Positions 3,254 through 16,759 of a DNA stretch of 37,570 bases are shown piece by piece. This DNA is from an uncultured bacterium. GTDB taxonomy: Bacteria > Omnitrophota > Gorgyraeia > Duberdicusellales > 4484-171. Below the pieces are notes generated by a model. It searched no databases. It was not told where the DNA came from and saw nothing but the letters and a program-made list of their open reading frames with translations. Location: positions 1 to 37,570 of the forward strand of contig CAJXAF010000005.1 of NCBI GenBank assembly GCA_913050175.1, written 5' to 3'. The translations under genes and the position numbers were made by a program. Positions within the stretch are counted from its first letter, which is position 1. The number at the start of each line of letters is the position of its first letter.

Positions 3254-4063
3254 TCAAGGTTTTACAATCTTTCTATACTCAGAAAGAATCTCTAAAGTTA
3301 TCTTGCCTGGCTTACCACTACCAATTGGTTCATCCTCACACTCAACCAAGGGCATAGTTTCAAGCAAAGCGCTGGTAATAAAAGCCTCATTTGCGGTTGC
3401 TAAATCTTCTAAGGAGATCTCTCTTTCTTCGATTTCTAAATTCATCTCTTCAGCTATACTTAAGACTACCTTTCTAGTAATTCCTTCGAAAACACCAGAC
3501 TCTATATTGGGAGTAATAAGCCTTTCATCCTTGATTAAAAATAAATTGCTCCTTGAGCCACCGACTAAATCACCTTTCTCATTTAATATCAAAGCCTCAT
3601 CCTTTTTAGCTTTTTGCGCCTGAAACCATGAGAGGCGATTTTGTAAGTAGCTTAATGATTTTACCTGCGATGCAACTTCGTCAATATTTCTAAGATAGGA
3701 TGAAATAAGAGTACTAAATCCTTTTTCAAAAACCTCCTGTGTATAATAACCAAAACTATCGGCATAAATTAAGATACCGGTTCCTTTTCGCTTTTTATAA
3801 GCAGTTATTCGTATGTAGGCATCCTTTATGCTGTTGGTTGAGATTAGCTCCCGGATAGATTTTTCCCAGTCGATTTCTATTGCTTCAATGCCTAATATTT
3901 CAAGACCCATGTTCAAGCGATTTATATGTTCAGAGAGAAAAGTAATATTATCACCATAAACACGGAAAGGTTCAAACACGCCCCAGCCAAAAAGAAATCC
4001 CGGCTCAAAGACTTCAGATACTTTATCTTTATCTATTATTTCGCCGTTACAATATACTTTCAT
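3254..4063 (-). CDS. Class IV PLP-dependent enzyme (aminodeoxychorismate lyase/branched-chain aminotransferase-like)
   Basis: VKSLSYLQNRLSWFQAQKAKKDEALILNEKGDLVGGSRSNLFLI..GVFEGITRKVVLSIA. Confidence 0.85.
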   Translation of the reverse strand: MKVYCNGEIIDKDKVSEVFEPGFLFGWGVFEPFRVYGDNITFLSEHINRLNMGLEILGIEAIEIDWEKSIRELISTNSIKDAYIRITAYKKRKGTGILIYADSFGYYTQEVFEKGFSTLISSYLRNIDEVASQVKSLSYLQNRLSWFQAQKAKKDEALILNEKGDLVGGSRSNLFLIKDERLITPNIESGVFEGITRKVVLSIAEEMNLEIEEREISLEDLATANEAFITSALLETMPLVECEDEPIGSGKPGKITLEILSEYRKIVKP

Positions 4064-4071
4064 GTTTAGTA

Positions 4072-4962
4072 TTAATTTGAGAAAATACTGGTAAAATTTT
4101 TAGTTGTGATTTTTTCTTTTAATTCTTGGCCAAGACTATCCAGCATTTTTAGGTTACTATTGATATCGCCGCAAACCGGGTAATCAGATCCCCAGAGCAA
4201 TTTATCTTCGCCAAATAAATCAATAGCAAGTTCAATATTTTTCAAAGAAGCTCCGGAAGTATCTACATAGACATTTTTTAAAATTTGGCTTGGTAGTTTT
4301 TTTAAGTCTTTTACTATTTTTCTGCTTCTTAACATCTGATAAACCCTATCAAAGCGGTCTTTTAATAAAGGCATAACTCCGCCTAGGGAAGAAAAAATAA
4401 ACTTTACTTTAAAATTATCAAGAATTTCCTCCATCATTAAAAGCCCCATAAACATTGATGAGTCAAAGCTGTATTCTAATACAGGCATGAGTAGGGGGTC
4501 TTTTATGCGCTCAAAGCCAATTGGGTTTATAGTTTGGGGATGAACAAAAATAGGTAAGTCATTATCTTCGGCGGCCTTAAATAAAGGCTCTAACTCTTTA
4601 ACCAAAAACCTGCCCTTATGGCTTGAAGCAATACTAAGCGCTCCAAAGCCTTTTTCTTTTAAGGAATTAATTTGTGAGCCAATAGTTTTAAGGTTATCTA
4701 AATCAAGAATGCCGGCGCCGATTATCTTAGGATTTTCCTTAATAATTTTTTCCAGTTCAGAGTTATATATTTCACAGACCCGCGAAAAGATGCCCAACTT
4801 AAGATGGGCATCAGTAGAAGGATAGACAAGAAGAGCTTTGGCTATATCTTGGCTGTCAAGATATGCAGAGAGTTTATCTTTATCAGTCCATATGCCTTTA
4901 TAAAAAGCAGTATGAATTGATAACTCTTTAGGAATAAAATGAATGTGAGAATCGCATAACAT
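4072..4962 (-). CDS. Amidohydrolase_2 (ACMSD-like) family protein
   Basis: N-terminal CDSHIHFIP, LPIFVHPQ, IFSSLGGVMPLLKDRFDR, KLLWGSDYPV. Confidence 0.8.
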   Translation of the reverse strand: MLCDSHIHFIPKELSIHTAFYKGIWTDKDKLSAYLDSQDIAKALLVYPSTDAHLKLGIFSRVCEIYNSELEKIIKENPKIIGAGILDLDNLKTIGSQINSLKEKGFGALSIASSHKGRFLVKELEPLFKAAEDNDLPIFVHPQTINPIGFERIKDPLLMPVLEYSFDSSMFMGLLMMEEILDNFKVKFIFSSLGGVMPLLKDRFDRVYQMLRSRKIVKDLKKLPSQILKNVYVDTSGASLKNIELAIDLFGEDKLLWGSDYPVCGDINSNLKMLDSLGQELKEKITTKNFTSIFSN

Positions 4963-5026: not shown

Positions 5027-6487
5027 TTATATATGAGATTCGCCTTTAACAGCGCCTTCTTCCCACTTACTAACTCCCTGCATAACATCTTGAAAGCATA
5101 ATTTCGCAAGAGGATCGAAGTTACTCGTCATAATCCTATGTATTCGTCCTGGTTTTGAGAAAAATTCTCTCATCGACCAAGAACCTAATCTTCCTAAGTC
5201 TTCAATTGTTAGATGGTCAGTAGGTGTGACCGGGTGTAAGAAATCCCATTTAAGAAAATCGATTTTTTTATAGTCAATCCAGCCTTTCTTTAAGCCGGTT
5301 CTCCACATTGGTGAATTAGGTGCCGGAGTAACATAGCCAACCCATAAAATATCTGGATCAACCTGATCGGTAAATTCATGTCGCTGCTTAATTATTTGTT
5401 CGCTGTCATAATCAAAGCCAATCATAATATCAGCAACAATAGCCACGTCATTTGCTCTTAAAATATCAATTGTTTTTTTAATCTGATCGATGGTTATACC
5501 TTTAGCGATCTTCTTTAACTCCTCAGGAGTAGTTACCTCGATTCCAAAAACACCCATAAACAGGACAGTTTCCTTCATTAAAGGTAAGATCTTCTCACAA
5601 TTAACCCAATCCACAGCTCTTCCCAAAGCAGCCCATTTAATTGGGTTGTTGGCTTTCTTCTTTAACTTACAGAAAGCCTCCACCCTATCAGGAACAACAT
5701 TAAAGTTATCATCTTGGATAACTACAACCTTAGTGCCAAACTTATGGTGCAGAAGTTCTAACTCTTCAATAACTCTTTCAGGTGATTTTGCCCGCCAAGT
5801 TAAAAAATCTTCGGGGTGCCTGGGATCATACTGATCCCACTCATAGCAAAAAGTGCAAGCCGAAGGACAACCACGAGAAGTCATCATCTCAACAAAGGGT
5901 TTCCAATGAGTATGGCCAACGTATTGGTCCATAGGGAACAAGTCATAAGCTGGAAGAGGCAGTTGATCTAAATCAACTAACAAAGACCTGTGAGGCCCCA
6001 TAGTAGGTTTTCCCTCAACTCGACTAGCAACACCAGCAATATTCTTAATCTCTGAACCACTAGCAAGCTTTTCAATTAACTCACCAACTGATTCTTCTTC
6101 GCCCATAACTACATAGTCAACTGAAGGATGGTCCTCTAGAGTTTGAAGCGGCATTGAAGAGTACCATAGACCACCCATAATAATTTTTACATTAGGGATT
6201 GCCTGTTTTATCCGGGAAGCGGCTTCATTAAAGTGCCAGATTACGCCAAAACCGACTGAACAGTGAATCATGTCACCCATCAGAATTGCATCAGGTTTTC
6301 TTTCTTTCACTTTCTCGGCAATCTGATCTAAAGGAATATCTGCAATTGTGCAATCTAATACTTCTACATCAGCATGACCTTTTTCTCTGATATAAGCACC
6401 CCATTGAGCATATAATTGATTAGGAGCAACATGTTTACCATGAGTTGCCCAGGCACCAATTTTTGGCATTACGCATAAAAGTTTCAT
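5027..6487 (-). CDS. B12-binding-domain radical SAM protein (BchE-like subgroup)
   Basis: N-terminal cobalamin-binding-like fold (MGDMIHCSVGFGV..IIMGGLWYSS..DYVVMGEEE), TSRGCPSACTFCYEWDQ (CxxxCxxC). Confidence 0.85.
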   Translation of the reverse strand: MKLLCVMPKIGAWATHGKHVAPNQLYAQWGAYIREKGHADVEVLDCTIADIPLDQIAEKVKERKPDAILMGDMIHCSVGFGVIWHFNEAASRIKQAIPNVKIIMGGLWYSSMPLQTLEDHPSVDYVVMGEEESVGELIEKLASGSEIKNIAGVASRVEGKPTMGPHRSLLVDLDQLPLPAYDLFPMDQYVGHTHWKPFVEMMTSRGCPSACTFCYEWDQYDPRHPEDFLTWRAKSPERVIEELELLHHKFGTKVVVIQDDNFNVVPDRVEAFCKLKKKANNPIKWAALGRAVDWVNCEKILPLMKETVLFMGVFGIEVTTPEELKKIAKGITIDQIKKTIDILRANDVAIVADIMIGFDYDSEQIIKQRHEFTDQVDPDILWVGYVTPAPNSPMWRTGLKKGWIDYKKIDFLKWDFLHPVTPTDHLTIEDLGRLGSWSMREFFSKPGRIHRIMTSNFDPLAKLCFQDVMQGVSKWEEGAVKGESHI

Positions 6488-6509: not shown

Positions 6510-7286
6510 TTACTTTTTAATCTTAGACTCTTCTGGGTGTTCCTGTTTAAAAGGAATCACCGGCTTTGTCCATGGTGTCTGCTGATTTATAACAGCTAGC
6601 TCCAAAGGACAAGCGGTCTGGCCTTGAGTTAAAGCAAATACTACTGTATCGGCAACTGCTTCTGGCTCCATTAGCCTTTCTTCGCAGATATTTTTTAATT
6701 TACCGGTTAAGGGTGTACGGGTAACTCCCGGAAAAATAGAAGTAACTTTAATACCAAAATCACGCATTTCCCAAAATAGTCCTTTGGCAAAAGCCCGTAA
6801 GGCAACTTTTAAGGAAGTATAAACAATAAAATTCCTTGGTGGCGGATCAACCATAACTGAACCGCTGGTAATGTTAATTATGTGACCATCATTAGCTTTT
6901 TTCATCGGACCAACTACAAGTCGTGACAACATCACATAGCTGTAGTAATTGGTCGACATTATTTTTCCTATATCTTCTAAAGGCTGCTCCCAGAAAGGAT
7001 GCTGGCTGGAAACGCCGGCACCATTAATTAAAACATCTATTTTTTTATAGGTTTTTAGAGTGTAGTTTACTAAATTTTCTAAATCCTCCTGTTTAGTCAC
7101 ATCGCACTTCATGCATAAAACCTTACTCTTTTTCGGCAAAGCCTCTTTTAGTTCTTCTAAAACTTCCAGTCTCCTGGCTGCCAAGACAAGGGTCGCACCT
7201 AGTGATGAAAGTTTTTCAACTAGTACTTTTCCTATGCCGCCAGAGGCACCGGTTACTATACATACTTTTCCTTCTAAATTAGCCAT
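6510..7286 (-). CDS. SDR-family oxidoreductase, candidate polyketide ketoreductase
   Basis: KVCIVTGASGGIGK (TGxxxGIG), NGAG, YTSLK (YxxxK). Start moved from 7325 to ATG 7286, which has GGAG upstream. Confidence 0.88.
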   Translation of the reverse strand: MANLEGKVCIVTGASGGIGKVLVEKLSSLGATLVLAARRLEVLEELKEALPKKSKVLCMKCDVTKQEDLENLVNYTLKTYKKIDVLINGAGVSSQHPFWEQPLEDIGKIMSTNYYSYVMLSRLVVGPMKKANDGHIINITSGSVMVDPPPRNFIVYTSLKVALRAFAKGLFWEMRDFGIKVTSIFPGVTRTPLTGKLKNICEERLMEPEAVADTVVFALTQGQTACPLELAVINQQTPWTKPVIPFKQEHPEESKIKK

Positions 7287-7314
7287 AACACACTCCTTTT
7301 CAATAAAATTATTT

Positions 7315-8472
7315 TTAGGAAACATTTGCCTCTTCGGCGATTATTTTATTCATATTAAATCCTAGTATAAAAATACTCAGAGCAACTAAGATAAAAAAGG
7401 CTTTAAAACCTATTAGCCCAACAAAAAAACCTCCCAGGACAACACCTAGCCAGCCAAAAGTAAAACGAAACGAGCTATTTAAACTTGAGGCTTCCCGCTG
7501 AATATTATCGGGGAAATGGGTAAGATGGGTGGACAAACCTACATGGGTAAGAGCCCAACCAGCACCCCAGAGCACAATTACAAAGAAGAGAAATTCATGC
7601 TCTTTAACAAAAAGAAGAGAAAGAACAAAAAGACTCATCATAATAAAACCGATACGGGTAATTTTTATATTCCCAAGCTTTGAGCCTAAAAATCCCCCTA
7701 GAAACTCAGAAGCAATTGCGCACAATGTTGATACAGTAAAAATTGTACTTATTACCAACTGCCTTAAATCAAAGGTCTGGCTTAAATACATGCCCAAACG
7801 CTGCTGAACACTATGATAAAGAGAACTCGCCAACATGATTACTAAAAAAAAGCGTAAGGCTTTTTTATCTTTTATTGCCTTAAAATAATTGATTTTAAAC
7901 TTCGCCTGGCGAAAATCAAAATCATGCAAACGCCACAACACCAAAGCAAAAGCTAGCAGACTTAAAATTGCCGGTATCCGGTAAAGCCATTGCCAGGGCA
8001 TGAAACCACTTAAAAAAACACTCACAAAAGTAGAGATATAACTTATGCCAAAGAACGTACCGATGTATTTTGATTTTTTCTTAGGGGAGACTGTCTTAGC
8101 AATAGTAATCAATGACAAGGGCACAAAACTACAGCCAAAACAACCCATTAAAAAACGAAATACAAAGGCCTGATGAATATTTTCCGATAAACTAAAAAAG
8201 AGCGTAGAAACAAAGAAACCAAAAGAAGTAAAAAGAAAGATTCTTCTGATGGTGAACATCCTCGATATTGGAGCCCAGATAAGGGCAATCAATCCATAAG
8301 GCAGCATATAAAGCCAGGTCAATTTTAGGGTATAGTTTTGGGCAACCCCAAAATGAACGGCAATTGAAGGAATCAAGGCTGCCATTGCTGCCACACCAAA
8401 AGAAACTGTAAAGAACATTAAACTTACGATGAAAAAACTAGATCTAGGCATTAACTTTTGCTTCGTTTTCAA
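7315..8472 (-). CDS. Major facilitator superfamily transporter, probable exporter
   Basis: 385 aa, about 12 hydrophobic segments, MFS-like loop; overlaps the upstream aromatase gene by 29 bp. Confidence 0.85.
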   Translation of the reverse strand: MKTKQKLMPRSSFFIVSLMFFTVSFGVAAMAALIPSIAVHFGVAQNYTLKLTWLYMLPYGLIALIWAPISRMFTIRRIFLFTSFGFFVSTLFFSLSENIHQAFVFRFLMGCFGCSFVPLSLITIAKTVSPKKKSKYIGTFFGISYISTFVSVFLSGFMPWQWLYRIPAILSLLAFALVLWRLHDFDFRQAKFKINYFKAIKDKKALRFFLVIMLASSLYHSVQQRLGMYLSQTFDLRQLVISTIFTVSTLCAIASEFLGGFLGSKLGNIKITRIGFIMMSLFVLSLLFVKEHEFLFFVIVLWGAGWALTHVGLSTHLTHFPDNIQREASSLNSSFRFTFGWLGVVLGGFFVGLIGFKAFFILVALSIFILGFNMNKIIAEEANVS

Positions 8473-8887
8473 TTATCTCTTTGAATCTCTTAAGATTATC
8501 CTGGGAATGCTTGTTAATTAGCTCCTCAACTTGACTGTCAGTATATTTTGCTTTTGCATCCATTTTAAAATCCTGAATCCAAGTCATCTCTATTCCGCCT
8601 TCAACCTCACGATAAAGCCAGATAATTTTCATGAACTGAAAAGGAAACATTGGCTCAACCCGGCAGGCATAAGCAAATTTATCTTCTTTAAAGAGTAGAC
8701 GATATGATGTCCAGCTCATTCCATTCTTATGAGATAGCTTAAACACTAATCTATTGCCCTTGGTCTCTGTCACTTCAGAACCAATATACTCATCAAAATA
8801 CTCATTCCAGCGATTAATATCATTACTTAAATCAAAAACTTTATCGTAAGAAGCATTGATAACTACTGAATTTACTGTATGTGCCAT
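8444..8887 (-). CDS. Polyketide aromatase/cyclase, SRPBCC fold (TcmN/WhiE-ORFVI-like)
   Basis: VVINASYDKVFDLSNDINRWNEYFDEYIGSEVTE..MKIIWLYREVEGGIEMTWIQDFKMDAKAKYTDSQVEELINKHSQDNLKRFKEIIE closely follows the streptomycete spore-pigment aromatase pattern. Confidence 0.85.
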   Translation of the reverse strand: MAHTVNSVVINASYDKVFDLSNDINRWNEYFDEYIGSEVTETKGNRLVFKLSHKNGMSWTSYRLLFKEDKFAYACRVEPMFPFQFMKIIWLYREVEGGIEMTWIQDFKMDAKAKYTDSQVEELINKHSQDNLKRFKEIIENEAKVNA

Positions 8888-8898
8888 ATATACCTCCT

Positions 8899-9720
8899 TT
8901 AATTTGCCTTAGAACTATCGCTATTTAGAATAGCTACCACTCTACTCCAAGCTGCACCTGTTTTGCGAATGCGTACCGGGAAACAAATAACTTTAAAACC
9001 AAAATCAGGTAAGACCTCCAAATTAGCCAGACGTTCTATATGAATAAATTCTCTCTTCCTGCCAAAAAAATGAGATGGCCAGAGATGCTTGGGGTCTTTA
9101 GATTCTTGGAAATCCTTCATCATAAACTTATAGGGTCGATCAATACCCATAGTATCGACACCAAATATTCTTATACCTTTATTAAGAAGGTATGTGATTG
9201 CCGATTCATCAACTCCGGGATAATCAGAAAAATATTCCGGCCCGCCAAAAAGTTTATCAGAACCAGTATATAAAAGAACTATATCAAACGGTTTTAATTG
9301 ATAATTGATATTTTTTAAAGCTTCTTCAATGTCTTCTCCAGTAATTACTTCATCAGCTTTTTTATGAGTTAAATTAAGCTTTATGCCGTCATTAAAGCAC
9401 CACTCAAGTGGTATCTCATCAGCAGTCTTAGAAGCTCTGCCTTCAGACTTACTTCCATAATGAAATGAATAATCAAGGTGGGTTCCGCTGTGCACTGATG
9501 AGTAAACCATCTCTAAAGACAGAAATTCCTCATCAGGAAGATCTTCTTTTTTTATCATCCGCTCGCCCTTTTCATAACTGGCTTTACCATCAGGGGTTCT
9601 GGACATAAGAACTTTATTGAGTTTATTGACTCCTTCTTTATGGGAAGTGCGGTCAATTTTTAAATCATGCACTTCAAAAGCAGTATCATCAATCGGTAAG
9701 CTTAAATCAATAATATTCAT
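8899..9720 (-). CDS. PF04199-type cyclase (kynurenine formamidase-like)
   Basis: IDLSLPI; YSSVHSGTHLDYSFHYG (HxGTHxDxxxH); FGVDTMGID. Confidence 0.85.
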   Translation of the reverse strand: MNIIDLSLPIDDTAFEVHDLKIDRTSHKEGVNKLNKVLMSRTPDGKASYEKGERMIKKEDLPDEEFLSLEMVYSSVHSGTHLDYSFHYGSKSEGRASKTADEIPLEWCFNDGIKLNLTHKKADEVITGEDIEEALKNINYQLKPFDIVLLYTGSDKLFGGPEYFSDYPGVDESAITYLLNKGIRIFGVDTMGIDRPYKFMMKDFQESKDPKHLWPSHFFGRKREFIHIERLANLEVLPDFGFKVICFPVRIRKTGAAWSRVVAILNSDSSKAN

Positions 9721-9744: not shown

Positions 9745-9975
9745 TTACTTCTTTTTCTCAATAGTTTCAACTATTTCTAGAGGTGTAGAAAATTTAGTTA
9801 CATCGTTAGTCTCAAGCGGTACTTGGAATTGCTTTTTTAAAGCTACTACCAGTTCAACCACTTCAGTTGAATCAACACCAATTGAATCGTAGAGTTTCTC
9901 ATCTTCCTTAACCTCGCCCTCTTTTACTTCCAAAGTTGTACAAATTAAATTAATGACTTCTTCTTTTAATGCCAT
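9745..9975 (-). CDS. Acyl carrier protein
   Basis: 76 aa, LYDSIGVDSTEVVELVVALKKQF: Ser 4'-phosphopantetheine site; directly downstream of KS/CLF. Confidence 0.92.
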   Translation of the reverse strand: MALKEEVINLICTTLEVKEGEVKEDEKLYDSIGVDSTEVVELVVALKKQFQVPLETNDVTKFSTPLEIVETIEKKK

Positions 9976-9997: not shown

Positions 9998-11233
9998 TTA
10001 CTCCTTTTCTATTGCCAAGACAACATTAATACCACCCCGGCCGCGGGCTATAATCAAAGCCTTCTTTATTTTCCGTTCTTTTGCTTTATTGGGAGTATAA
10101 TCAAGATCACAATTAGGATCAGTCATCTCGTAGTTAATTGTCGGCAAGACTGTTGAGTGCTTCATGGAAAAAATAGTGGCAATTAAATCTAAAGCGGTTT
10201 GAGCACCTAATAAATTACCAAACATACTTTTAGGCGCACTCATAGATATGGTTTCAATTTGTTTACCAAAAACATTCTTTATCGCTTGAGTTTCAAGATA
10301 ATCACCCATTTCTGAAGCTTCAGCATCTAAACAAATATAATGGACATTGCGCTTATTCCAGCGGGCTTGGGCTAAACAATCTTCAATAGCATACTCTAGA
10401 CTACTGGAATCAGGCCTGTATTGACTGTAATGATAGCCATCTGAGGAAAAACCCACACCTTTAATAAATCCATAAATAGGAGCATTTCTTCTTTGAGCGT
10501 GTGATTCTTTTTCTAAAACTACCATGCCTGAACCCTCGCCAACAGCAAAGCCATCGCGATATAAATCATAAGGTTTATAGGCTCGGGACGGATTTAAGTT
10601 ATTTTTTGACAGCCCTCCCCGAGAATTTATACATAATAGAGCGTAAGGGGTAATTGGCGCTTCCATTCCTCCGGCAACAACATACTCATTCTTACCGTCA
10701 GCGATTGTTCTTGAAGCATACCAAAGAGCAAGAGCGCTGGAAGCTTTATCAGCTACAATAGTTTTGCTGTAACCTTTAAAACCATAATAAATCGTAACTT
10801 GCCCCTGAGATGCTGCCGGAAACCAGGCTGAAGCCATATAAGGAGAAATGCCTTCTCTGCCCTCTAAATAAAGATCGCGCAATTCAGTCTCGGCAAAGAG
10901 CCAGCCACCAAGGGCATTACCCATAAAAACGCCTACTTTATTTTTATCAGTATTTTCAAGGTCAATACCTGAATCTTTGAGGGCCTGTTCAGTGGCTACC
11001 AGAGCCATATGGGAAAAAACATCAATTTTCTTGATCAATCTTGACGAAAGATGCGAGTAGTGATCCAATTCATGAACTTGTCCGGCAATTCGAGAAGGAT
11101 AAGTAGAAGCGTCAAAACGAGTTACTTCATCAACAAAAGACTCTCCCCTTTTTAAGTTTGCCCAAAATGTCTCTTTTTTTAAGCCACAGGGTGAAACAAC
11201 TCCCATGCCTGTAATCGCTATACGTTCTGCCAT
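9998..11233 (-). CDS. Ketosynthase-like chain-length factor (KS-beta/CLF)
   Basis: KS fold (MAERIAITGMGVVSPCG..) without catalytic residues: Cys->Lys in IVADKASSALAL, His->Asp in YICLDAEASE, His->Asn in KSMFGNLLG. Confidence 0.87.
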   Translation of the reverse strand: MAERIAITGMGVVSPCGLKKETFWANLKRGESFVDEVTRFDASTYPSRIAGQVHELDHYSHLSSRLIKKIDVFSHMALVATEQALKDSGIDLENTDKNKVGVFMGNALGGWLFAETELRDLYLEGREGISPYMASAWFPAASQGQVTIYYGFKGYSKTIVADKASSALALWYASRTIADGKNEYVVAGGMEAPITPYALLCINSRGGLSKNNLNPSRAYKPYDLYRDGFAVGEGSGMVVLEKESHAQRRNAPIYGFIKGVGFSSDGYHYSQYRPDSSSLEYAIEDCLAQARWNKRNVHYICLDAEASEMGDYLETQAIKNVFGKQIETISMSAPKSMFGNLLGAQTALDLIATIFSMKHSTVLPTINYEMTDPNCDLDYTPNKAKERKIKKALIIARGRGGINVVLAIEKE

Positions 11234-11252: not shown

Positions 11253-12500
11253 TTATTTCCATCGTTTAAAAATAATTGATGAATGTATACCGGAAAATCC
11301 ACTACTTGTTTTTAAAATATATTCCGGTGTGTGTTCTCTCTTAGTATTAGGTATATAATCTAAATCACATCGGGGATCTGGTTCTTCTTGATTTATTGTT
11401 GGCGGTAGGTAGCCGTTTTTAAAAATCATACAACAAAGGACACTCTCAGCAGCATTAGCCGCAGCCAAGGGATGGCCAATCATTGACTTAATTGAACTAA
11501 TGGGAATTTTATAGGCTAACTCACCAAAAACTTGTTTATAAGCGTCAGTTTCAAAAGCATCATTTTGCCTGGTTGATGAACCATGAGCATTTATATAGGT
11601 AATATCTTCTTTTTTAATCCCGGCCTCACTTATAGCATCTTCCATACAGCGCGCCATCGGTTCACCGTTTTCCGGTAGATCAGTCATATGGTAAGCATTG
11701 CAACTAGTGCCAAAACCTAATATCTCAGCATATATTTGTGCACCTCTTTTTTTAGCGTGCTCTAATTCTTCCAAAATAAGAATACCGGCAGCCTCAGAAA
11801 TTACAAAACCATTACGCTTATTATCAAATGGCCGGGAAGCTTTATGGGGTTCGTCATTATTTTTTGCCAGAACATTTACCACGTCAAAAGAGCCAAAAGT
11901 TATCGGAGTTACCGGTGCTTCTGATGCCCCGGCAATAACAACATCCTGTCGGCCTTCGCGTATTAATTCATAAGCAAAGCCAAGTGAATCTGTTCCGGCA
12001 GTACATCCAGTCGAAACTGTACAGTTTATTCCTTGAGTTTCATAAATTGCTGAAATCTCTCCGCTAGGGGTATTAAAAGTAGCAGCATCATAAAGATAGG
12101 GCCTTCCCTTTCTGGGATCAATGGGGTTCTTACCCCAATCAGTCACCAATAAAAACTCTTCTTCCATAAACCTTGTTCCACAAATAGCATTAGCTAAGAT
12201 AACACCACATTTTCTTTGATCTAGTTCACGAAAATTAATCTTTGCATCTTCTACAGCTTGCTTGGCCGCAGCGATACCAAACTGGACGTACCTATCCATA
12301 CGTTTATGTTCGCTAATGCCGAATTTTAAGGGGTCAAATTTTAAATCCTGGGAAGCAATTTTTGAAACAAATAAACTAACATCAAAATTCTCAACCCGTT
12401 CTATACTGGATCTTCCCGAGATGAGATTATCATAAAATTCATTTTTATCTTCGCCCGACCCTGAAATAATTCCTATACCTGTTATAACTACTCTGCGCAT
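11253..12500 (-). CDS. Type II PKS ketosynthase alpha (KS-alpha)
   Basis: VSTGCTAGTDSLGFAYELIREGRQDVVIAGASEAPVTPITFGSFD, RPFDNKRNGFVISEAAG, YINAHGSSTRQND, SSIKSMIGHPLAAANA: matches actinobacterial KS-alpha motifs. Confidence 0.93.
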   Translation of the reverse strand: MRRVVITGIGIISGSGEDKNEFYDNLISGRSSIERVENFDVSLFVSKIASQDLKFDPLKFGISEHKRMDRYVQFGIAAAKQAVEDAKINFRELDQRKCGVILANAICGTRFMEEEFLLVTDWGKNPIDPRKGRPYLYDAATFNTPSGEISAIYETQGINCTVSTGCTAGTDSLGFAYELIREGRQDVVIAGASEAPVTPITFGSFDVVNVLAKNNDEPHKASRPFDNKRNGFVISEAAGILILEELEHAKKRGAQIYAEILGFGTSCNAYHMTDLPENGEPMARCMEDAISEAGIKKEDITYINAHGSSTRQNDAFETDAYKQVFGELAYKIPISSIKSMIGHPLAAANAAESVLCCMIFKNGYLPPTINQEEPDPRCDLDYIPNTKREHTPEYILKTSSGFSGIHSSIIFKRWK

Positions 12501-12547: not shown

Positions 12548-13174
12548 CTACTTTTTTCTGGAAACTTTAAAAACAATACTTCCCCCATCGGGACAAGTTA
12601 CAGTATCAATTGAATCAGGATCTTTCATAAAAAAGAATTTTGCCCCAAAATTTAAAGCAAAAAGTGCTGGAAAAGCAGTGTGCCAGGCAGCACCACAGAA
12701 CCCTTCTATACATTTTAGACCGTGGACATCCCACTTATCACCGACTTTATACTTGTAAGCACAGTAACCTTTTGCTTCGACAACTTCCATCTCCATTTCT
12801 TTTGGATTTGGACCTTTAAAATCGGGGTCTTTAGGTATAAATTCAACAGTCTTACCATCTTTATCTAGAACTTCAGCTTTAAATTCTAACTTACCTCCGT
12901 CAGGACAAGTTACGTTAAGAGATCTTTGGTTGTCCATAAAAGGAAAGCGTGCTCCAAAACTTAAAGCATAAATTACCGGAAAAAGTGCATGACCAAGGCC
13001 AAGGCAAAAATGCTTAGGTGGATGAGTAAAATCACCAAGAATTATCTCATCTCCCACATCATAACCGTGATAACACTCTCCCTCCATCTTTAAAACGGTG
13101 AGCTTAAGCGCCGGAAATGGAGTTTCGATTTTAGATCTATCTACTACGTAACAATCTCCGCATTTATCTTTCAT
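12548..13174 (-). CDS. Protein with two tandem TIGR04076-like domains
   Basis: Internal duplication: VLKMEGECYHGYDVGDEI..FPVIYALSFGARFPFMD..TCPDGGKLEFK and VVEAKGYCAYKYKVGDKW..FPALFALNFGAKFFFMKD..TCPDGGSIVFK. Confidence 0.7.
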   Translation of the reverse strand: MKDKCGDCYVVDRSKIETPFPALKLTVLKMEGECYHGYDVGDEIILGDFTHPPKHFCLGLGHALFPVIYALSFGARFPFMDNQRSLNVTCPDGGKLEFKAEVLDKDGKTVEFIPKDPDFKGPNPKEMEMEVVEAKGYCAYKYKVGDKWDVHGLKCIEGFCGAAWHTAFPALFALNFGAKFFFMKDPDSIDTVTCPDGGSIVFKVSRKK

Positions 13175-14177
13175 AATTCATCACCTCTTCTGTTTGGGAT
13201 AATAAGTCTTCTTTACTAAAAAATTCCTTTCTATCTTCGACCGCGTGCACCATCTGAACTATTTTTTTATTAAGTGGTGCCTGGAAATTATTATTTTCAG
13301 CTAATTTAACTACTTCCCCGTTAATATAATCTATTTCCGACCTTCTTTCTCTCTTTATGCTCTGTAAAATTGAACCGTAGAGCGGCTCTTTGCTTAGATT
13401 AGCCATTGTCTGAGATAAAAGCGAAGCAGCTTCGTTAAGGGGCATTGATACAAACCCCTGGAGACGTTCTTTAGGGTAGTTCGGTAAACTCTGTATTTGG
13501 ATATTACACTTATCGACTAAACTATAAGCTTCCTGATTAAGTCTGATTGCTAATTTAGCTAATTCTAAATCGCTATAGGTATCCTGCATTGACTTGCCGA
13601 TTATTGCCGGTAGACAATTATTAAGGTTAATAAATAATTTAAGGTATTTTGCTCCTTTTATATTGTTTATTTTTACTACTTCAAAGACATCTGAAAGAGG
13701 AAGAAGGATTTCCTGATTTACCTCTTCTGAATCTGAAAAAACATCTCCGATAATTAATTTATTCCCGAAATTATGAACAACTTTATTCGGTGGGTAAAAA
13801 GTTGCCCCAAACATAACAATACCGGTAATAATTTTTTCTTTAGGGAAATATTCTCCTAAGATATTTTCAGCAGCTAAGCCATTTTGAGTAGTTAGAATAA
13901 AAGCGCCTTCTAGAGCTTGCTTGTTAGCTTTAATCACCTCTTCTAAATCATTAATCTTCGTAGCAAATATAGCTAAGTCTACTTTTTCTCTTAAAACCGT
14001 ATCGGCTTTGACCTTTACAGTTACACTACCTTCCTTACTTTCAATAGTTAAACCTTCGTTAAGTAGTGCGTCTTTTTGATATTCTTTAACTACCCCGACT
14101 ACTTTTTGGCCCATTCCCGAAAGATAGCCTAAGAATAAACTACCAATTGCTCCACAACCTAAAACTGCTATTTTCAT
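13164..14177 (-). CDS. Ketopantoate reductase (ApbA/PanE)-like dehydrogenase
   Basis: MKIAVLGCGAIGSLFLGYLSG (GxGxxG); FATKINDLEEVI; TTQNGLAAENIL. Confidence 0.85.
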   Translation of the reverse strand: MKIAVLGCGAIGSLFLGYLSGMGQKVVGVVKEYQKDALLNEGLTIESKEGSVTVKVKADTVLREKVDLAIFATKINDLEEVIKANKQALEGAFILTTQNGLAAENILGEYFPKEKIITGIVMFGATFYPPNKVVHNFGNKLIIGDVFSDSEEVNQEILLPLSDVFEVVKINNIKGAKYLKLFINLNNCLPAIIGKSMQDTYSDLELAKLAIRLNQEAYSLVDKCNIQIQSLPNYPKERLQGFVSMPLNEAASLLSQTMANLSKEPLYGSILQSIKRERRSEIDYINGEVVKLAENNNFQAPLNKKIVQMVHAVEDRKEFFSKEDLLSQTEEVMNYER

Positions 14178-14187
14178 TTTAAATACT

Positions 14188-14448
14188 TTAATCCTTTATG
14201 TACTGAGAGTAATCTATGCCCTGCTTATGCATAAGACGTTTCATCATATCTTTAAATGCTGGGGGAACTTCCTGAAAAAAAGCTGTTATAACATCGGTCT
14301 CTTCTACAGACTCAGATCCTCTGGTTTCTGCTAATTCTTCGGATTTCTCTTTTACTAATTGTTCAGCAATAGATTTATGAAATTGCGGAAGATGCGTAAT
14401 TATTAAATCAAAGTGACTTTTGGCTTTTTCATCCCACTGTATGGTCAT
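14188..14448 (-). CDS. Small helical protein, PCP_red-like (light-independent protochlorophyllide reductase C-terminal-like)
   Basis: 86 aa: IQWDEKAKSHFDLIITHLPQFHKSIAEQLVKEKSEELAETRGSESVEETDVITAFF. Confidence 0.45.
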   Translation of the reverse strand: MTIQWDEKAKSHFDLIITHLPQFHKSIAEQLVKEKSEELAETRGSESVEETDVITAFFQEVPPAFKDMMKRLMHKQGIDYSQYIKD

Positions 14449-14465: not shown

Positions 14466-15218
14466 TTATTTACTTCCTACCTTGCTTAATTCATCAACTA
14501 CTGAAAAAGCAAGATCGGTCATTTTCATTTCAGCTTGAAAAAATCTAAAGTCAGTAAAACCCATTTGACCGGTAATAAGATTGTCTGAAACTGCACAAAT
14601 TGAGGCGACTTTTCTCTTATTAAGGTTAGCTATTGTAACCAACGGCGAAGTTACCATGTCAACTGCAATAGCCCCTTTTTCGATATAAGGATTGACTATC
14701 TCCTTTGTTTCTCTAAATATAGCATCAGTTGTCCAAATCCCACCTTGATGAATAGTTCCGGCTTGCTTAAAAACTTCGTTAATTGCTTCATTTACATCAG
14801 GACTGACTTTAGGAACAAAATCATCGTCAACATAATAGCGGGTTGTTCCATCTCCGCGTAAGACATCAGTTACCAAGACATAGTCGCCGATATTTATGTC
14901 TTTCCTTAAAGCACCGCAAGAACCGAGCCGGATAAAAGTATTTATGCCTCCGGCGCAGAGAATCTCAGCCACAAAGGCTGAATCAGGGGCATAAAAACCT
15001 CCGTTACCAACGGTTACTTTAATGCCTTTATAATATCCGGTCCAGAAAGTATAGCCAAGAAAGGTAAAATTCTTTACATGGTTTTCCATTTTTTCTAAAC
15101 ATAACTGAGCCCGGTGTTGCTGGCCGCTGACTAGAACGATATCACCAAAATCACCTTCTTTAAATTGTAAAGAAGCTAATAGTTCTTTTGGATTCATATG
15201 TACGTCTCTTTGCATCAT
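14466..15218 (-). CDS. Nucleoside phosphorylase (PNP_UDP_1) family
   Basis: FIRLGSCGALRKDINIGDYVLVTDVLRGDGTTRYY; GAIAVDMVTSPLVTIANLNKRKVASICAVSDN. Confidence 0.85.
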   Translation of the reverse strand: MMQRDVHMNPKELLASLQFKEGDFGDIVLVSGQQHRAQLCLEKMENHVKNFTFLGYTFWTGYYKGIKVTVGNGGFYAPDSAFVAEILCAGGINTFIRLGSCGALRKDINIGDYVLVTDVLRGDGTTRYYVDDDFVPKVSPDVNEAINEVFKQAGTIHQGGIWTTDAIFRETKEIVNPYIEKGAIAVDMVTSPLVTIANLNKRKVASICAVSDNLITGQMGFTDFRFFQAEMKMTDLAFSVVDELSKVGSK

Positions 15219-15253: not shown

Positions 15254-16759
15254 TTATTTACTAAAGACTAACTTTGTTTTATCGATCTTTCCTACTCTAT
15301 TCTTAGGGAGTTCTTCTAAAACTTCAAAGTAGTGGGGAATTTTAAAGTGAGCAATGTGTTCTTTTAAGAACTCCTTGATTTCCTGTTCGTTAAAAATCTG
15401 GCCCTCGCAAATTGCTAAGTAAGCCTTAGGGACTTCTCCCCGTAATTTATCACTAACGCCGATTACGGCTACTTCTTTTACTTTAGGGAATTTTAAAATT
15501 TTCTCCTCAACTTCAGCTAAGAAAACTATTTCTCCGGCAACTTTAATCATATCTTTCTTTCTGCCGACAATATAATAAAAACCTTGTCTATCAAAATAAG
15601 CTACATCCCCGGTCTTAAGCCAGCCATCTTCGGTTAAAACCTCTTTTGTTAAGGCTTCTTCTTTAAAATAACCGCTCATTATAGCCTCACCCTTAATCCA
15701 TAATTCTCCGTTTTGATTAGCTTTTAATTTATTTCCCTGATTGTCTACTATTCTGACCTCTACCTCAGGAACAAACTTACCAATGCTTCTAATGTGTTCA
15801 TCTCCCGGTTCAGATAAAGTATTAGGAGCGGCAGTTTCAGTCATCCCCCAACCATTACAAAGTTTAGCATTAGGGTAAGCTTTATGAAATCGTTTTAAGA
15901 GAGCCGGTGAAGAAGGAGCGCCAAATACAGCTGCATAGCGAAGTGAGGAAAGATCAAACCTTTCATACTCCTTTAAAGACAACAAAGCCACAAACATAGC
16001 CGGGACAATACAAAAAATACTTACCTTATGCTCCTGAACATTCTTTAAGAATTCAAAAGGCTGAAAACGCTGCATAAGAATTAACTTGGAAGCAAAGGTA
16101 ATCGTGAGAAGAATATAAGCAAGCCCTCCGATATGTGAAAAAGGAACTCCTCCACATAAAAATACATCTTTATCAGTAACTCCTAAGAAGTAATCTATAG
16201 CGTAAGCTGGATTTCTTAATTGCCCGGCGTTAACCATTACTCCTTTAGGATGCCCGGTTGAGCCAGAAGTATAAAATATAGCCAAAAGATCTTTATCTAA
16301 AACTTCTTGAGGATTTAAGTCACCAGACCCACTAAGGGCATCATTCCAATTTGTAAAGTTAGGATTTTCTTCTTTGCAAATAATAATCTCTTCTAAATTT
16401 TGGCATTTTTCTTTAACGACACTTAAATCAATATTATTTTTGGCTTGAGTGATCAAAACTTTTGCCTGACTGTGATTTAAAAAAGTAATTATCTCTTCCT
16501 GAGTAAGCATAAAATCTAAAGGTATGCAGACTTTGTCAGCAGAAAAAATACCGAGAAAACTAAATATTGTCTCGGGGATATTGGATAAATATAGAGCTAT
16601 TTTTTCATCCCTGTCCTGATTTCGGCAAAGGAGATAATTAGCTAATTTAAAAGAGGTTTCTTTTAATTCCAAAAAGCTTATATCCTTGCCTTCAAAGAAA
16701 ACAGCTCCTCTCTGGGGTCGAATTTTGGCTTGTTCTGTAAGTAGTTCTTGTACTGTCAT
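15254..16759 (-). CDS. AMP-dependent acyl-CoA/acyl-ACP synthetase
   Basis: AIFYTSGSTGHPKGVMV, NGWGMTETAAP, GWLKTGDVAYFD, PKNRVGKIDKTKL. Confidence 0.92.
   Translation of the reverse strand: MTVQELLTEQAKIRPQRGAVFFEGKDISFLELKETSFKLANYLLCRNQDRDEKIALYLSNIPETIFSFLGIFSADKVCIPLDFMLTQEEIITFLNHSQAKVLITQAKNNIDLSVVKEKCQNLEEIIICKEENPNFTNWNDALSGSGDLNPQEVLDKDLLAIFYTSGSTGHPKGVMVNAGQLRNPAYAIDYFLGVTDKDVFLCGGVPFSHIGGLAYILLTITFASKLILMQRFQPFEFLKNVQEHKVSIFCIVPAMFVALLSLKEYERFDLSSLRYAAVFGAPSSPALLKRFHKAYPNAKLCNGWGMTETAAPNTLSEPGDEHIRSIGKFVPEVEVRIVDNQGNKLKANQNGELWIKGEAIMSGYFKEEALTKEVLTEDGWLKTGDVAYFDRQGFYYIVGRKKDMIKVAGEIVFLAEVEEKILKFPKVKEVAVIGVSDKLRGEVPKAYLAICEGQIFNEQEIKEFLKEHIAHFKIPHYFEVLEELPKNRVGKIDKTKLVFSK

Follow-up and report, generated by a model that had tools for sequence, protein, structure and literature searches.

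A predicted cobalamin-dependent radical SAM enzyme family linked to a type II polyketide synthase operon and adenosyl-processing genes in Omnitrophota

The window is a 37,570-nucleotide stretch of DNA from an uncultured Omnitrophota bacterium. Fifteen genes, all on the minus strand and separated by intergenic gaps of at most 64 bases, run from position 16759 down to 3254. The operon's first gene encodes an acyl-AMP/CoA ligase (15254..16759; AMP-binding, 272 bits) that resembles long-chain fatty-acid-CoA ligases (414 bits). It is followed by a DeoD/MTAP-type nucleoside phosphorylase (14466..15218; PNP_UDP_1, 119 bits), whose top solved relative is the 5'-methylthioadenosine phosphorylase 1jds, and by an 86-residue DUF2621/PCP_red-like protein (14188..14448) found in 24 of the 27 clusters that have full 10-kb flanks. 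Next are an ApbA/PanE-type ketopantoate-reductase-like dehydrogenase (13164..14177; TIGR00745, 166 bits, cut-off 141) and a protein with two tandem TIGR04076 domains (12548..13174; 100 bits, cut-off 33). In the clusters that have it, the 86-residue protein mostly adjoins the ApbA gene; PCP_red otherwise belongs to protochlorophyllide reductase.

The centre of the operon encodes the synthase itself. KS-alpha (11253..12500) retains its Cys-His-His residues, and its best match in the PDB is the type II polyketide ketosynthase 6smo_B (359 bits, versus 345 bits for FabF). The adjacent KS-beta or chain-length-factor-like protein (9998..11233; ketoacyl-synt, 163 bits) has Ala at the active-site Cys position (VADKASS; VAD[RK]ASS in relatives). 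It is followed by a discrete acyl carrier protein (ACP; 9745..9975; 76 residues, PP-binding, 43 bits), whose GVDSTE site is found in 72 of 77 relatives. With a Cys-His-His KS-alpha, a Cys-less KS-beta and a discrete ACP side by side, the operon is, by sequence, a type II polyketide synthase (PKS). Such KS-CLF pairs of Omnitrophica are already known from an earlier survey that counted them (PMC10132072).

Downstream of the ACP lie a PF04199 putative cyclase (8899..9720; Cyclase, 99 bits), an SRPBCC polyketide cyclase/aromatase (8444..8887; Polyketide_cyc2, 43 bits), an MFS transporter (7315..8472; MFS_1, 97 bits) and a short-chain dehydrogenase (SDR) that is a ketoreductase candidate (6510..7325; adh_short, 151 bits). 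The B12-binding radical SAM gene (5027..6487) comes next, and the operon ends with an amidohydrolase 2 family protein (4072..4962; Amidohydro_2, 65 bits) and a class IV aminotransferase (AT4; 3254..4063; Aminotran_4, 160 bits) that retains the PLP lysine motif KSxSY. The amidohydrolase, which 26 of the 27 fully flanked relatives also encode, has Ser where the second metal-site His is expected (FSSLGG); it is possibly an aromatic decarboxylase. No oxygen-dependent tailoring gene was seen in the cluster, and its product appears to be a greasy aromatic polyketide made without oxygen. Between the operon end and the contig start, three small plus-strand gene pairs resemble toxin-antitoxin systems by eye: 160-725 (YefM/RelE-like), 1310-1988 (MNT/HEPN-like) and 2116-2668 (BrnT/BrnA-like).

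Translation of the radical SAM gene gives an uninterrupted frame of 486 residues on the minus strand, from 6487 to 5027. The earlier note had given these coordinates correctly, and the gene lies on the opposite strand; the plus-strand reading of 5027-6487 is ruled out by stop codons throughout. That note had also described a cobalamin-binding N-terminus and the peptide SRGCPSACTFC in a B12-type radical SAM protein of a polyketide operon. This description holds: SRGCPSACTFC, which contains the CPSACTFC cluster motif, and RAKSPERVIEELELLHHKFGTKVVVIQDDNFNVVPDRVEAFC both occur letter-exact in the minus-strand translation, and Pfam places a B12-binding domain at residues 31-134 (47 bits) and a Radical_SAM domain at residues 203-366 (69 bits), both above the gathering cut-off. 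The CxxxCxxC motif is retained in the relatives inspected. An AlphaFold model of moderate quality (pTM 0.62) has TokK, TsrM, CysS, OxsB, AprD4 and MgmA as its first sixteen Foldseek matches (E 1e-14 to 1e-12), and MiaB ranks behind these B12 radical SAM structures (5e-9). The two Pfam domains, the CxxxCxxC motif and the top structural matches thus identify the protein, at the level of sequence and model, as a member of the cobalamin-dependent radical SAM class, predicted to bind both cobalamin and SAM.

Within this class the enzyme stands apart from the named families. Its best named HMM is the BchE equivalog TIGR02026, at 173.1 bits against a cut-off of 481.35, followed by HpnJ (136 bits, cut-off 578); HpnR (94 bits, cut-off 650) and the MiaB-like model (22.5 bits, cut-off 357) score lower still. 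No curated NCBIfam profile reached its family cut-off, methylase families included, and membership of BchE, HpnJ, HpnR, PhpK, ladderane and MiaB-like families was rejected because every cut-off was missed. BchE is also the closest HMM for three further family members (173-217 bits across the clades tested). Identity to BchE is 21-23%, and to BchE, HpnJ and HpnR together 21-24%, the comparison sequences being taken from annotated plasmids; the ADEEPT stretch of BchE reads QDDNFN in the enzyme. In the tree, the Omnitrophota proteins form a single clade (support 100/100), separate from the BchE (99/99) and HpnJ (100/100) clades and from HpnR, with the order of branching among clades weakly supported. 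The label "BchE-like" used in the earlier note is therefore right as to the nearest named HMM and wrong as to membership, and the clustering with hopanoid methylases or MiaB that the note named as its refutation did not occur. The sequence evidence indicates a family of its own among radical SAM enzymes with a B12 domain.

Two alternatives for its chemistry can be weighed against these comparisons. Most characterised members of the class methylate, and the nearest solved structures of the model (pTM 0.62) include the methylases TokK, TsrM and CysS, consistent with cobalamin-dependent radical SAM methylation of an unactivated carbon in the lipid or polyketide. However, every methylase cut-off was missed, a methylase would also form SAH, for which no handling gene was recognised in the cluster, and the adenosyl-processing genes described below would be accounted for only as salvage. 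We consider C-methylation unlikely. The enzyme could also cross-link or cyclise lipids by ladderane- or tetraether-like C-C coupling, its product merely sharing an operon with the PKS. Ladderanes and tetraether rings are among the products suggested for B12 radical SAM enzymes (PMC13142503), and TIGR04072, a lipid-biosynthesis B12 radical SAM model, matches weakly. Nevertheless, that match reaches 74 bits against a cut-off of 360. A single pathway is favoured by the genes for KS, ACP and cyclases, which are conserved near the enzyme gene and on its strand in 25 of 27 loci, so lipid cross-linking seems improbable. The earlier note put forward three reactions with the polyketide as substrate, namely hydroxylation, methylation and C-C bond formation, and any of these may be a rival to the reading preferred below.

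Relatives of the enzyme at E <= 1e-60 were found in 144 of 384 Omnitrophota genomes, and in 102 of the 249 good ones (about 40%). Dozens of genera contain orthologues with 70-85% identity; this conservation, together with the retained CxxxCxxC motif, shows that the gene is not a chance reading frame. Among the best 80 genome contigs, all those with a name belong to Candidatus Omnitrophota, and plasmid records from outside the phylum reach only 21-30% identity. A literature search found no description of the enzyme family or of the cluster. The presence of enzyme and cluster, highly conserved, in about 40% of good genomes suggests a core lipid or pigment, not a variable antibiotic.

The arrangement is also conserved. 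KS-alpha, KS-beta, ACP, both cyclases, SDR and an MtnA-like isomerase lie within reach of the enzyme and on the same strand in 25 of the 27 loci, and an aldolase does so in 24. The enzyme likely carries out a polyketide-linked anaerobic step. In many related genomes (L099, L103, L109, L118, L142, L151), a gene for a protein of about 1036-1064 residues directly precedes the cluster. On a plasmid of Azoarcus sp. KH32C (L165), a distant B12 radical SAM gene has a ketosynthase gene, an ACP gene and an isoprenylcysteine methyltransferase-like gene as neighbours, which may be a further case of lipid and polyketide genes paired. Elsewhere in the window's genome (G000:C9; L005, L008), a 9269-codon open frame has two B12-binding matches (40 and 24 bits), which is unusual in a giant protein.

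Comparison of neighbourhoods linked the enzyme to a module made up of the DeoD/MTAP-type phosphorylase, the MtnA-like isomerase, a class II aldolase fused to an SCP2 domain, an aldehyde dehydrogenase (ALDH) and the acyl ligase. Many clusters add a DhnA/LsrF-type thiolase next to a gene of Zn-alcohol-dehydrogenase size, and many carry an exporter trio of an MMPL/sterol-sensing RND protein, a LolA/DUF1329 protein and a DUF1302 barrel. One such thiolase (L077:5562-6359) scores 351.8 bits with the LsrF equivalog NF006081 (cut-off 297). In many clusters, the isomerase and aldolase genes flank one for a half-length IF-2B/MtnA-like protein (L055:17513-17989 and relatives). In genome counts, which are not phylogenetically independent, the enzyme and the aldolase-SCP2 fusion occur together in 135 of 384 genomes, the enzyme alone in 9, the aldolase alone in 11 and neither in 229. 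The 11 were rejected as counter-examples, being either cluster pieces cut by a contig end, with full-length SCP2 fusions, or plain aldolases of 205-272 residues with neither SCP2 nor cluster.

Several members of the module differ from their textbook counterparts. The aldolase fusions are 303-373 residues long, with SCP2, a lipid-binding domain, above the Pfam cut-off; in the model, SCP2 (pLDDT about 90) sits behind a DrdA/FucA-like aldolase core that matches DrdA 6btg/6btd in structure comparison. Plasmid records contained no convincing match to the fusion. In 73 of 73 cluster isomerases the Cys, Asp, Lys and Gln are kept, a 7-residue loop beside the catalytic Cys is missing and RGAPxIG is changed to TRxxGQ. 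All four MtnA controls, one of them from an aldolase-mtnA-deoD cluster, retain both loop and RGAPxIG. The altered region may form a pocket for a C5 substituent. Within the phosphorylase family, VSDN (purine Asp) is retained in 48 of 52 relatives, and the usual ribose Glu motif VEMExA has become VDMVxS (VDMV in 50 of 52); the operon's phosphorylase may be the enzyme that strips adenine from an adenosyl product. In the window's genome, isomerase, aldolase, ALDH, LsrF-like and ADH genes are adjacent on a separate contig (C16), no exporter trio was seen beside its isomerase, aldolase and ALDH genes, and a true MtnA is encoded on a further contig (C48; 412 bits, cut-off 279).

The module also occurs apart from the PKS. 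Clade C genomes (G001, G136, G148, G189, G147, G165) combine the enzyme with ligase, phosphorylase, isomerase and aldolase, and several of them also have ALDH and exporter. No KS-beta orthologue was detected in these genomes, where matches of 28-38% are at the level of FabF; the loci L181-L184, L073 and L074 have module and enzyme with the PKS missing. Polyketide as the sole substrate was rejected because enzyme and module persist in PKS-free genomes. Since this sister clade keeps the module without a KS-beta orthologue, the reaction of the enzyme may precede the polyketide step and act on an apolar acceptor, and its substrate may accordingly be an apolar precursor.

The explanation that we tentatively prefer, while giving it somewhat less than an even chance, is that the enzyme attaches the adenosyl group to an apolar acceptor, after which the module cuts the ribose back to a two-carbon acyl-CoA, the primer for the PKS. 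We infer the adenosylation solely from the classes of the predicted downstream enzymes. The [4Fe-4S] cluster would split SAM to give the 5'-deoxyadenosyl radical, which the enzyme would couple to an apolar unsaturated acceptor, X, much as HpnH adenosylates diploptene and MqnE its enol ether. The phosphorylase would then swap adenine for phosphate to give X-ribose-1-phosphate, the remodelled MtnA-like isomerase would convert this to X-ribulose-1-phosphate, and the SCP2-fused aldolase would grip the greasy end and free DHAP and X-CH2-CHO. Aldehyde dehydrogenase and acyl ligase would turn the aldehyde into the acid and then X-CH2-CO-thioester; in many genomes, the Zn-ADH and LsrF-type thiolase could instead give the same acyl-CoA directly. 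LsrF with CoA cleaves a 4-keto sugar phosphate to DHAP and acetyl-CoA (PMC6410053), and by analogy this chemistry may belong to the cluster pathway. The X-CH2-CO group would prime KS-alpha/KS-beta/ACP, the cyclases would aromatise the chain and the product would be exported. In PKS-free genomes the homologated lipid would be the end product.

A larger, greasy X is favoured because the aldolase carries a lipid-binding domain, because all 73 isomerases lost the loop and changed RGAPxIG, because the window's genome also has a true MtnA, and because the exporter trio matches the Ame system for apolar monoterpenes. Taken to its full extent, the adenosyl group of SAM would be a two-carbon donor, with ribose C4'/C5' surviving in the acyl-CoA primer of an anaerobic type II PKS and a conserved Omnitrophota outer-membrane lipid as product; this extended form is more doubtful, at roughly one chance in three. 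A hopanoid acceptor was rejected, as no squalene-hopene cyclase was found in 11 enzyme-carrying genomes.

Several observations count against the adenosylation reading. We know of no B12-dependent radical SAM enzyme that attaches an adenosyl group, and MqnE and HpnH have no B12 domain. Salvage of 5'-deoxyadenosine employs the same enzyme classes, and with X = H the proposed route would be just that salvage (PMC6079011, PMC10986504). The phosphorylase lacks the usual ribose-binding Glu, and the isomerase, aldolase and ALDH of the window's genome are on a different contig from the operon. In addition, copies of the enzyme with about 60% identity lie away from any polyketide genes in G091 and G111 (L066, L202), and G111, a single contig that is 94% complete, has an enzyme copy and no aldolase module. 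The copies at L066 and L202 have modABC-like transporter genes on one side and a membrane hydrogenase-like operon on the other. Enzyme clades A, B and C all adjoin the same adenosyl-processing module, and in G091 (L171, L067) clade B lies at one cluster end and clade C at the other. That three clades adjoin one module, two of them together in G091, suggests that not all catalyse the same reaction.

The main rival is BchE-like oxidation or cyclisation of the polyketide or a lipid precursor, with the module acting in 5'-deoxyadenosine salvage, which we judge nearly as likely as adenosylation. Hydrogen abstraction would lead to oxygenation with oxygen from water, to desaturation or to ring closure, cobalamin would serve as an auxiliary redox cofactor, and phosphorylase, isomerase, aldolase and ALDH would form a dedicated DHAP shunt that clears the inhibitory by-product. 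BchE is the top HMM in every clade tested; it is oxygen-independent and takes oxygen from water in vitro, and non-methylating members of the class form rings or rearrange (PMC13142503). The role of cobalamin in BchE-like enzymes is itself still unsettled (PMC13142503). In the DHAP shunt, 5'-deoxyadenosine is processed by these enzyme classes (PMC6079011, PMC10986504), in keeping with the match of the aldolase core to DrdA. However, the BchE cut-off is far off and the BchE motifs are missing. This chemistry also leaves unaccounted for the SCP2 domain and the loop deletion in 73 of 73 isomerases, the acyl ligase in the PKS-free module, and a second isomerase in a genome that already has a true MtnA.

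Omnitrophota are widespread, nearly all uncultured and poorly understood. Read from sequence, the enzyme forms a family of its own within a conserved cluster that joins a predicted type II PKS to an adenosyl-processing module and often to an apolar-compound exporter. If adenosylation and trimming are correct, they would constitute a previously unknown route to lipid lengthening and PKS priming; if the BchE-like reading is correct, the cluster would add to the systems that oxygenate or cyclise anaerobically, here for a purpose other than chlorophyll synthesis. Either would help to account for cobalamin in some radical SAM enzymes.

Among known systems, BchE shares domain order, length, best HMM match and the anaerobic combination of radical SAM and cobalamin with the enzyme, but its context is tetrapyrrole and not polyketide or lipid. 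HpnJ and HpnR belong to the same class; however, they form separate clades, and squalene-hopene cyclase was not found in the 11 genomes mentioned above. The operon shares KS-alpha, Cys-less KS-beta, ACP, cyclases and a ketoreductase-like SDR with type II aromatic synthases (6smo KS; actinorhodin KS-CLF, 1tqy), and differs in that no oxygen-dependent tailoring gene was seen and in having Ala at the KS-beta Cys position. As in the DHAP shunt and 5-deoxyribose salvage (MtnP or MtnK, MtnA, Ald2/DrdA; PMC6079011, PMC10986504), a phosphorylase, an MtnA-type isomerase and a class II aldolase that yields DHAP and an aldehyde are present, here as linked genes, whereas the isomerase lacks the MtnA loop (73/73), the aldolase is SCP2-fused and not stand-alone, and the cluster adds ALDH, acyl ligase and exporter, in many cases with LsrF-type thiolase and ADH. 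A literature search returned no paper that combines radical SAM, phosphorylase, class II aldolase and SCP2, and adenosylation terms also returned nothing. The trio of DUF1302, LolA/DUF1329 and RND proteins in many Omnitrophota clusters recalls the Ame system of Castellaniella defragrans, in which a DUF1302 outer-membrane protein, a LolA/DUF1329 periplasmic protein and an HAE3 RND pump serve apolar monoterpenes (PMC6394551), although the Omnitrophota trio is linked to biosynthesis genes of another kind. The hopanoid precedent is HpnH-HpnG-HpnN, comprising adenosylhopane synthase, phosphorylase and exporter (PMC12583986). If adenosylation holds, the Omnitrophota genes would repeat its sequence of radical SAM enzyme, nucleoside phosphorylase and apolar-lipid transporter, but HpnH is without a B12 domain, the hopanoid core is missing here, and the isomerase and SCP2-aldolase would shorten the ribose to two carbons.
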